IMG/VR virus record: IMGVR_UViG_3300042905_003249
Span: 1-24,094 of that record
Source of the DNA: a virus
Reading direction: 5' to 3' (one strand)
Length of the DNA: 24,094 nucleotides
A model generated the notes under the pieces. The model saw only the letters and a program-made list of their open reading frames with translations. It was not told the DNA's origin and made no database searches. A program made the translations under genes and the position numbers. Numbering within the stretch: position 1 is the stretch's first letter; each line of letters begins with the position of its first letter. Of the stretch, positions 7,188-20,682 are shown in pieces.

Positions 7188-7495
7188 TATCCCCTCTTAT
7201 CCAATGCGCCGGAGCCGGAGCCGTAGCCGGATCCGTCGCGGTAGCCGTCGCCGTCGCCGTAGCCGGAGCCGTAGCCGTAGCCATCGCCGGAGCCGGAGCC
7301 GGAGCCGGAGCCGTAGCCGTCGCCGTAGCCGGAGCCGTAGCCGTAGCCATCGCCGTAGCCGGAGCCGTAGCCGGATCCGTCGCGGTAGCCGTAGCCGTAG
7401 CCATCGCCGTAGCCGGAGCCGTCGCCGTAGCCGGAGCCGTAGCCGTAGCCATCGCCGTAGCCGGAGCCGGAGCCGCTAAAAAAAATTAGCTCCAT
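7187..7495 (-). CDS. Glycine-dipeptide repeat protein (Gly-Ser/Tyr/Asp)
   Basis: After the leader MELIFF, residues ~7-96 are about 45 dipeptides in which every second residue is Gly and the partner is Ser, Tyr or Asp, with two Arg exceptions in a repeated YRDGSGYGSG block. The protein ends ALDKRG. This frame is preferred over the other two open frames of the repeat because its ATG lies 10 bases inside the upstream gene's end, its stop overlaps the next start as TAATG, and GAC/GAT variants are synonymous only here. I recall similar Gly-Tyr-Asp repeats in phage and metagenomic proteins, but no known function. The composition suggests a disordered, possibly phase-separating or adhesive protein (inference). 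Confidence 0.68.
   Translation of the reverse strand: MELIFFSGSGSGYGDGYGYGSGYGDGSGYGDGYGYGYRDGSGYGSGYGDGYGYGSGYGDGYGSGSGSGSGDGYGYGSGYGDGDGYRDGSGYGSGSGALDKRG
7207..7476 (-). repeat. GC-rich hexanucleotide repeat array
   Basis: About 45 copies of a degenerate hexamer, read on the plus strand as GCC + GGA, GTA, GTC or ATC. Two segments containing GGATCCGTCGCGGTAGCC lie 144 bases (24 hexamers) apart, so there is a higher-order duplication. The array encodes the dipeptide repeat of the overlapping gene. Unit length is a multiple of three, so expansion or contraction would keep frame. Confidence 0.92.
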
Positions 7496-18638: not shown

Positions 18639-19823
18639 ATGGCTCAATTTAACCTGACCACTGCGTCGAACTTGTTCAAAATCAAGTACGGCAAACTTTC
18701 TGAAAACACCTACAACTCTGCGAACGTGCTCCTTGGCCGCGTGAAGAAAGATTTCAACTTCACCGGTAAGCGCATGGATATCGCTGTGCCTACCTCTTTC
18801 GCTGGCGGCGTGGGTTCTGGATCACTCCCAACCCCTAACTACGCAGCGGTGCAAGATGCAGTTATCACCTCGAAGAAGATGTACTCGGTCATTCAGATCG
18901 ACCGTGAAGCCATCAAAGCTTCGAGCCAGAACGAAGGCGCTTTCGTTGAGCTGACCAAATACTCAGTTCAAAAGGGCGTTGAGAGCTGGATGCGCAACAT
19001 GAGCCGCGCTCTGTTTAACGACGGATCAGGATCGCTCGGAACCATCGCCGCTGGCGGTGTTTCTGGTGCAGGCCCTTGGGACGTCGTTATCTCTGACGCT
19101 ACCTGGAAAGAAGCCAACTTCGAAGAAAAGGACTATGTGAACCTTGCTTCATCTTCGGCTGTCTTCGAAATTACTGCAGTGGTTCCAGCGACCAAAACCG
19201 TCACCTTGACGGCTGTCTCTGGCTCCTACACCCCACTCGCTGGGGATGTAATCTATATGCAGAACTCGAAGCTCAATGACCCAAGCGGCCTCAAGGGCGT
19301 CTTGGATGCTACCTCAGGCTCCCTCTACGGCATCACCGTGGGCCGTCGTTGGCAGGCAGGTGCTCAGGTGGCTGCTGCTGGTGCAGGTCTTACGACTGAC
19401 CTCATGAACCAGACGATGCTTGAGATTCAGCGCAAGAGCGGTAAGGTTCCTAACCTCATCCTCTGCTCGTTCACTCAGTATCGTAAGCTCCTGAACGTGC
19501 TCGAAGACCAAAAGCAATACATTGTTGAGCCACGCTCTCCTGAGCTGGTCGGCAAGGTGTCGTTCAAGGGCGTCGAGTTCATGTCGTCCGCTGGTCCAGT
19601 GGCCGTCATTCCAGAGCGCTTTATTGAAGACGATCGTATGTACCTCCTGAATGACAACTACATTCAGATTCACCATCGCCCAGACTTTGGCTGGTTCGAT
19701 GATGATGGTTCGGTCTTCCTTCGTACGGCTTCTTCGGATGCTTACGAAGCTCGCTTCGGTGGATACTTGGAAGCTTATATCGTTCCATCGTTCCACGGCG
19801 TGATCAGCGGGTTGGCTATCTAA
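18639..19823 (+). CDS. Major capsid protein (HK97-like fold expected)
   Basis: This 394-residue protein begins MAQFNLTTASNLFKIKYG. The N-arm is followed by segments matching HK97-type capsids of short-tailed phages: KMYSVIQIDREAIKASS, KYSVQKGVESWMRNMSRALF, then MLEIQRKSGKVPNLILCSF and EARFGGYLEAYIVPSFHGV. It forms the icosahedral shell. The GGAGG ribosome-binding site 5 bases upstream of its ATG and a strong terminator right after it fit a highly expressed gene. Codon use is also more biased to C-ending codons than in neighbouring genes. The family fold is inferred, not computed. Confidence 0.92.
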   Translation: MAQFNLTTASNLFKIKYGKLSENTYNSANVLLGRVKKDFNFTGKRMDIAVPTSFAGGVGSGSLPTPNYAAVQDAVITSKKMYSVIQIDREAIKASSQNEGAFVELTKYSVQKGVESWMRNMSRALFNDGSGSLGTIAAGGVSGAGPWDVVISDATWKEANFEEKDYVNLASSSAVFEITAVVPATKTVTLTAVSGSYTPLAGDVIYMQNSKLNDPSGLKGVLDATSGSLYGITVGRRWQAGAQVAAAGAGLTTDLMNQTMLEIQRKSGKVPNLILCSFTQYRKLLNVLEDQKQYIVEPRSPELVGKVSFKGVEFMSSAGPVAVIPERFIEDDRMYLLNDNYIQIHHRPDFGWFDDDGSVFLRTASSDAYEARFGGYLEAYIVPSFHGVISGLAI

Positions 19824-19838
19824 TCTGCTAGCAGTACT

Positions 19839-19870
19839 GGGGGGCTGGGATTGTCCTGGCCTCCCTTTTT
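19839..19870 (+). terminator. Terminator after the major capsid gene
   Basis: GGGGGGC (19839-19845) pairs with GCCTCCC (19859-19865), one G-U pair, with an inner GGGA/TCC, followed by TTTTT (19866-19870). It lies 15 bases after the capsid stop. Partial read-through would lower expression of the following minor structural genes. Confidence 0.75.
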
Positions 19871-19894: not shown

Positions 19895-20224
19895 ATGCTT
19901 CGTTCTATTAAGTCCCCTCAGCGTCTCCCTAGACAGCTTCACTTTAAAGTCGATGGCGTTTCCACGTCTTCGCTCTTGGTCGGTGCCCTTGATGGCGTCC
20001 TGACCGTGAACGGAACTGGAGACTATACCGTTACTTTCGCCCAGCCATTTGCCCGCGTTCCAGTTGTATCGGCTACGGTTGGCGGAGCTGCTATCGGAGT
20101 CGCCTTGGTTGATTCTGCCAGCGCAACGGCTGTCACTGTGAAGGCCTTTGATCTTGCAGCCTCTGCGCTTGACGTGGAGCTTCACTTGATCGTTCAAGGT
20201 TTTGACGCTGCTGACGAATACTAA
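19895..20224 (+). CDS. Small beta-rich structural protein (109 aa)
   Basis: This encodes 109 residues after a basic N-terminus (MLRSIKSPQRLPRQ). The body is beta-rich with NGTGDYTVTFAQPFARVPVV and SATAVTVKAFDLAASALDVELHLIV, a pattern common in C-terminal beta-sandwich domains of phage fibres and in head decoration proteins. CCGGAGG lies 8 bases before the ATG. Its place right after capsid and before other small structural genes suggests a head decoration or fibre-like protein, but no family is named. Confidence 0.65.
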   Translation: MLRSIKSPQRLPRQLHFKVDGVSTSSLLVGALDGVLTVNGTGDYTVTFAQPFARVPVVSATVGGAAIGVALVDSASATAVTVKAFDLAASALDVELHLIVQGFDAADEY

Positions 20225-20233
20225 GGCTAGTCA

Positions 20234-20311
20234 GGCCCGGTAGCTCAGGGGTAGAGTAGCTTTAAGCGCGGCACTTAAAGCGGGTCAGAGGTTCGAATCC
20301 TCTCCGGGCCG
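20234..20311 (+). tRNA. tRNA-like gene with an extended anticodon arm
   Basis: A full cloverleaf can be drawn: acceptor GGCCCGG/CCGGGCC, D arm GCTC-AGGGGTA-GAGT, variable GGGTC, T arm AGAGG-TTCGAAT-CCTCT, discriminator G at 20311, no encoded CCA. The anticodon arm is abnormal: 23 bases instead of 17, pairing as an 8-bp stem GCTTTAAG/CTTAAAGC with a 7-base loop CGCGGCA. The middle of the loop would read CGG (Arg CCG codon), but U33 is missing. A 5-bp stem would leave a 13-base loop. Identity is therefore uncertain. It lies between two small structural genes. Confidence 0.78.
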
Positions 20312-20328
20312 CCTAACGGGGGTTTAAA

Positions 20329-20682
20329 ATGGCAAGCGTGCAAAGACTTGTATTGCAGAGCGGGGCAATTTCTGGAGCATCTGGACAGACGACTCCAGTT
20401 AGCTTGGAAGCTTACGTGATGGATGTAATCGGTTCAGTGGTCTGCTCCGCTGCTGGGTTTACTACTTTTGACGCCTTTCTTCAGCACTCTCCAGACGGAA
20501 CGACCTGGTTCGACGTCGTGCAGCTTGCGAAGCCGGGGGGCGGTTCTTTGACAACCACTGGAGCTATGATCGCATCTACGACTAGCCCTATCTTGGGCAA
20601 GATTCGGATGCGGTGGGCACTTACGGGTGGCGCGCAGACGGCTACCGCTGACTTTGTAGTCTATTACGATAAGAGGAAGTAA
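20329..20682 (+). CDS. Small structural protein (117 aa)
   Basis: This encodes 117 residues, mostly beta-strand, with VMDVIGSVVCSAAGF, DAFLQHSPDGTTWFDVV and IRMRWALTGGAQTATADFVVYY. The QHSPDGTTWFDV block resembles beta-sandwich domains in phage virion proteins. GGGGG lies 6-10 bases before the ATG and the stop overlaps the next start (TAATG). Likely a minor head or neck component; no specific family assigned. Confidence 0.62.
   Translation: MASVQRLVLQSGAISGASGQTTPVSLEAYVMDVIGSVVCSAAGFTTFDAFLQHSPDGTTWFDVVQLAKPGGGSLTTTGAMIASTTSPILGKIRMRWALTGGAQTATADFVVYYDKRK

Follow-up and report, generated by a model that had tools for sequence, protein, structure and literature searches.

The 24,094-base virus record IMGVR_UViG_3300042905_003249, which we analysed over its whole length and call the window, carries within a block of virion genes a transfer RNA (tRNA)-like structure (20234..20311, + strand) that very probably represents a conserved structure without a decoding function. 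Its sequence and setting suggest that the phage has reused the tRNA fold as a signal in its own mRNA, most likely as a cutting site, and we give transcript processing about an even chance of being its main function.

The initial annotation had described this element as a cloverleaf with an 8-base-pair (bp) anticodon stem and no U33, and the sequence itself, ARAGORN, Rfam and the minimum-energy fold all agree with that description. The element consists of the acceptor GGCCCGG/CCGGGCC, a D arm, an extended anticodon arm, a T arm and G at position 73, followed by an encoded CC (positions 74-75; 20312..20313, + strand) and then T at position 76, so that there is no CCA. The anticodon arm (20259..20281, + strand; GCTTTAAG-CGCGGCA-CTTAAAGC) has 8 bp and a 7-nt loop, giving 23 nt against the 17 nt of a normal tRNA, with G instead of U at position 33. 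The minimum-energy fold is the full cloverleaf, including this stem and the loop CGCGGCA. The Rfam tRNA model RF00005 matches 20234-20311 over its curated cut-off (48.6 bits, E=9e-8), our own model R1, built from relatives, scores the element at 82.5 bits (E=6.7e-20), and ARAGORN calls tRNA-Pro(CGG) at 20234-20313. ARAGORN found no second tRNA in the window, and a search of all Rfam gave no match to any other family at E<=1. In this single sequence, the chance of three extra pairs is a few per hundred, an explanation that fails for the family described below.

Relatives were gathered by five capsid-protein scans, giving loci from well over 100 viral contigs. Of the first 81 loci, 36 have an ARAGORN tRNA call at the corresponding position, variously labelled Pro, Ser, Leu, Arg, Ala, Val or 'undetermined'. 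The ARAGORN check proposed in the initial annotation did yield a tRNA call at the site, but the 'Pro' label of the window is meaningless because its homologues receive such different ones. A descriptor scan that also admitted normal anticodon arms found 34 distinct element sequences, every one on the coding strand; the relatives are metagenomic contigs, mostly fragments, and these are counts of sequences and not of independent events. The covariance model made from these sequences detects the element in 42 loci and the window, besides one weak chance match, and among 93 other loci it matches only L136 and L142, both already carriers. The homologues come from many separate samples, and wherever their flanking genes are readable the element occupies the slot between ORF A, a small open reading frame (ORF), and the next gene. 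No close isolate was found by a distant-mode DNA search or by protein searches in annotated phages, and a scan of genome contigs returned only a 47% relative, in a Campylobacterota metagenome-assembled genome.

The long anticodon arm is a property of the entire family, spanning 23-27 nt in 34 of 34 homologues with a median of 8 predicted pairs; positions 26-48 cover 29-33 nt in all of them, compared with 23 in a normal tRNA. A normal 17-base arm in related phages had been named beforehand as the observation that would speak against the annotated element, and we looked for such an arm (5 bp with a 7-nt loop) and found it in none of the 34 distinct homologues (0/34). In the alignment fitted to the covariance model, 92% of cells are paired (slid controls, 37-47%) and 237 cells have changed on both sides with pairing kept, versus 77 in shuffles; a structure-free alignment gives a nearly equal covariation result. 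Pairing by helix is 95% in the acceptor, 99% in the D and 99% in the T stem, and RNAalifold predicts the cloverleaf from the fitted alignment with the long anticodon stem included. This stem is often imperfect, showing a bulge or small internal loop in many homologues. The elbow formed by the D and T loops is nearly invariant, and nearly all homologues have the T loop TTCRANT. It is almost certain that neither decay of a tRNA copy nor a sequencing error explains the element, as the initial annotation had also argued with regard to random decay: nothing besides the odd arm speaks for either, whereas the 34 distinct sequences, drawn from those many separate samples, all have the long arm at a near-constant length and show compensatory changes.

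Poor decoding, or none, had been expected from the window alone, and the family bears this out through its overlong arms, the G33 of the window and the lack of a consistent anticodon. We consider it highly improbable that the element is a real though unusual tRNA that is charged and decodes. Both ARAGORN and Rfam call a tRNA, and allo-tRNAs with 8/4 or 9/3 acceptor domains provide a precedent for unusual forms that can be charged and used (PMC7609411). However, U33 is missing, the arms are mostly of 8-10 bp and commonly have closed 4-nt loops, the called anticodon varies without pattern, the discriminator base (position 73) is variable among homologues, and three of the same phages possess a canonical tRNA-Asn. 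At another site, each of these three carriers (the contigs of L009, L015 and L023) has a single tRNA-Asn(GTT) gene of ordinary form: its anticodon stem is 5 bp long, U33 is present and the GCCA end is encoded. Carriers can therefore hold normal tRNA genes with CCA, making the long arm and the missing CCA special to the element in the capsid slot. Taken together, these results exclude, or make very improbable, a decayed copy, a sequencing error and ordinary decoding. We did not retain the suggestion of a decoy for anticodon nucleases, because in most homologues the normal 7-nt anticodon loop is replaced by GACG alone, as a rule with base pairs closing it; no support was found for a primer role. 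A role as attachment site was also put aside, with no integrase among the identified window proteins and the fold conserved over its full length.

The stems of the long arm vary by compensation while its tip stays conserved. The tip loop is GACG in 25 of 34 homologues, mostly closed by CG, GC or TA pairs, and GCGGC in 7 of 34, the subclade of the window included; the tips of L024 and L136 differ from both. Retention of the tip with different closing pairs above changing stems favours an excised, stable small RNA working in trans, with the tip of the long arm as its contact to, for example, a protein or a host RNA. We find this distinctly unlikely as the main function, given that a search for conserved sequence able to pair with the tip loop yielded none near the capsid stop codon, the ORF A start or the element flanks, that L024 and L136 have other tips, and that the tip may be merely a stable loop.

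When all viral contigs were searched for both tip classes, all but four of the contigs found were carriers already identified. The four non-carrier matches (L252, L255, L257 and L262) are odd tRNA-like genes that fold without the same arm. Three of them (L255:4339-4396, L257:115-172 and L262:9961-10018) belong to other phages and have an overlong anticodon region (GGGAATATGGCGGCCGAGGAAGCCC), with no recognisable capsid context in L255 and L262. The fourth (L252:5267-5324) has a possible 5-bp stem and 14-nt anticodon loop and lies on a 77.7-kb viral contig with five ordinary tRNA genes nearby.

The gene order at the slot is major capsid gene, small ORF A, element and next gene. In the window, the SU10-type major capsid protein gene (18639..19823, + strand; PF17236 above its cut-off, PHROG 14242 major head protein) is followed by ORF A (19895..20224, + strand; 109 aa), which is always directly upstream of the element, and by ORF B (20329..20682, + strand; 117 aa) behind it. 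The distance from the ORF A stop codon to the element is 9 nt in the window and 6-13 nt in relatives, and the start codon of ORF B lies 17 nt past 20311, the last base of the element (10-22 nt from element to next start codon among carriers). In some relatives that keep the element and ORF A, an unrelated gene beginning with MTIQQ (up to 594 aa) replaces ORF B. The gap between the capsid gene and ORF A holds a terminator-like hairpin in the window (19839..19870, + strand; 12 pairs, then TTTTT) and a hairpin in nearly all relatives, carriers and non-carriers alike. The virion block of the window further includes a terminase (PF03237) and a P22/SU10-like portal (PF16510, PF23899).

A start codon this close behind the element is what one would look for in a tRNA-like leader that is not excised and boosts translation of the gene directly behind it. 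Such an effect has precedents, in that translation in vitro increased 2- to 6.3-fold when tRNA folds were grafted upstream of a Shine-Dalgarno sequence, and that the yjdF riboswitch acts via a tRNA-like fold (PMC9142559). We nevertheless judge a leader unlikely, because either ORF B or the MTIQQ gene can follow the element while the upstream ORF A remains constant, because L039, described below, has a terminator-type hairpin yet the same downstream gene, and because a leader does not need C74-C75 to be conserved, changes to the end having had little effect in the grafted constructs (PMC9142559).

The capsid-protein tree, for which a few labels were set by hand from the sequences (L039, L051, L058 and L076 as hairpin, L136 as carrier), places 31 of 33 carriers within one group of 32 (support 92/99), with L047 and L029 outside. 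The only non-carrier inside this group is L039, whose capsid protein is 92.8% identical to that of L037. The alignment of L039 with L037 reaches the first base of the element and resumes just behind it; in L039 a 14-bp hairpin followed by T8 stands in place of the element and the downstream gene is kept. A hairpin search with simple rules and automatic ORF choice, which also covered the gap behind the capsid gene, found that the slot of more distant relatives contains hairpins, some of them terminator-like, or nothing. The elements of L017 and L029 are identical to that of the window letter for letter, and across window positions 20181-20322 homology to these two begins just before the element while ORF A has diverged (58-62%), which places recombination junctions at the element; homology to L004 ends shortly after it.

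The 3′ end of the element is selectively kept, with C74 in 32 of 34 homologues, C75 in 27 and A76 in only 7 (7/34), and CCA is encoded in few. Two features of an RNase P substrate are present, namely an intact T loop with paired acceptor and T stems, which from the tRNA layout would be stacked on each other, and an N73-C74-C75 end fit to pair with RNase P RNA. It is precisely positions 73-75 with which bacterial RNase P RNA pairs (PMC11143913; PMC12710915). For the same reason we strongly doubt that the element stays on the capsid/ORF A message as a block against 3′ exonucleases, in the style of plant-virus tRNA-like ends. The fold is compact and highly paired, and terminator-type hairpins occupy the same slot in relatives, both in keeping with such a block, but RNase P would be expected to cleave 5′ of a cloverleaf that lies within a longer RNA and ends in N-C-C (PMC11143913; PMC12710915). 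There is also no T run 3′ of the window element, where CCTAACGGGGG comes next, and a terminator scan gave no match at the element, which was accordingly rejected as an intrinsic terminator.

Of the roles offered by the initial annotation, the best fit is a signal for processing of the late transcript, although cleavage is something we infer. A role in dividing the late message is indicated by the slot, by the swap for a terminator-type hairpin, by the persistence of the element whichever gene comes next and by the conservation of C74-C75. The element would then be a punctuation mark in the late capsid mRNA. Host RNase P would bind the stack of acceptor and T arm together with the N73-C74-C75 end and cut at the 5′ side of the element, and a 3′ tRNA-processing nuclease might next cut behind it. 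The capsid/ORF A message would thereby be split from that of the following virion genes, and the amounts and lifetimes of the two could differ. The long anticodon arm would serve to keep the released RNA out of translation, and an additional role in binding is probable for its conserved tip, GACG or GCGGC.

Several points weigh against processing as the main function. RNase P needs no special anticodon arm, so processing alone leaves the conserved arm length and tip loop unexplained, and a tip conserved with no complementary partner found sits poorly with a purely processing role. A strong hairpin is already present behind the capsid gene in nearly all relatives, and the capsid message may therefore need no second 3′ element. 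A cut at the element would also give ORF A a bare 3′ end. Finally, the replacement in L039 is a single event, and some relatives have an empty slot. A broader proposal, to which we assign slightly less than an even chance, is that phages possess a class of tRNA-like RNAs dedicated to punctuation: descended from tRNA but no longer decoding, they would be exchangeable modules separating virion genes, and a phage or host factor would recognise the tip of their lengthened anticodon arm.

Two observations concern other parts of these genomes. The major capsid gene of several relatives is interrupted by a stop-filled, highly structured insert of 230-270 nt, located after capsid codon 18/19 in L091:3001-4431, L045:2423-3869, L142:3001-4447, L108:3001-4452 and L125:2931-4343 and at another position of the gene in L136 (~883-1154). 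The inserts share a common core, CGGTGAACCCTGARATGGGAATACCGAG ... GTAACGCRTAG ... TRYGCTGA, from which L091 deviates in the first part. With its P4-P5 hairpin and covarying GCATA/TATGC helix, the insert reads like a small group I-type intron; an Rfam search with it gave only a junk match, even at E<=10. The same core occurs in other phage contigs (L267 11962-12031, + strand; L268 951-1013, - strand; L269 7359-7428, + strand; L271 648-714, - strand), at least some of these copies lying inside open frames that resume behind the core, and L268 has two cores a few hundred bases apart. This is possibly a widespread intron family that the Rfam group I model misses. Separately, window positions 7208-7475 consist of a tandem repeat of the 6-base unit GCCGTA (~45 copies), where each strand has long open frames.

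tRNA-like structures with non-decoding jobs are known from plant RNA viruses, tmRNA (transfer-messenger RNA) and a few mRNAs, and in the open-access literature we found no report of a clade-wide tRNA-like element fixed in the capsid operon of a DNA phage. The element offers a direct test of whether phages borrow host tRNA-processing enzymes to divide their late messages. Because programs that search for tRNA genes assign these elements to Pro, Ser, Leu or Arg, counts of phage tRNAs in viromes include RNAs that probably never decode.

Compared with canonical tRNA (RF00005), the element has the same cloverleaf, T8/A14, G18G19 in the D loop, the TTCRANT T loop and, in the window, a 7-bp acceptor, but differs in its arm of 23-27 nt instead of 17, the absence of U33 and of a consistent anticodon, the usual lack of CCA and its constant location within a late operon. 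Positions -1 and 73 could pair in 23 of 34 homologues, giving an 8-bp acceptor, and together with the lengthened anticodon stem this recalls tRNA-Sec, selC* tRNA-Cys and allo-tRNAs. Membership of the allo-tRNA/tRNA-Sec group, which has an acceptor domain of 12-13 bp (8/4, 9/3 or 8/5) and a long variable arm, was rejected, as the element family has a 5-bp T stem, a variable region of ~5 nt without a long arm, an anticodon arm mostly of 8-10 bp and no usable anticodon loop, and the acceptor of the window is 7 bp. In the yjdF riboswitch, too, a tRNA-like fold immediately precedes a gene as part of the mRNA leader, whereas the element does not match the Rfam model of that riboswitch, always stands behind the capsid/ORF A unit and has no constant downstream gene. 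With the tRNA-like structures cut by RNase P (the 3′ ends of turnip yellow mosaic virus and tobacco mosaic virus, the tmRNA precursor and processed polycistronic mRNAs) it shares an acceptor/T half with an N-C-C end inside a longer RNA; it differs in having the complete cloverleaf and in its location between two virion genes of a DNA phage, with cleavage predicted from sequence. MALAT1 mascRNA, a tRNA-like RNA of eukaryotes, defines the 3′ end of an RNA, and although the phage-borne element is unrelated to it and its processing is a prediction, the two are alike in having a tRNA-like fold that may make an RNA end by way of RNase P.
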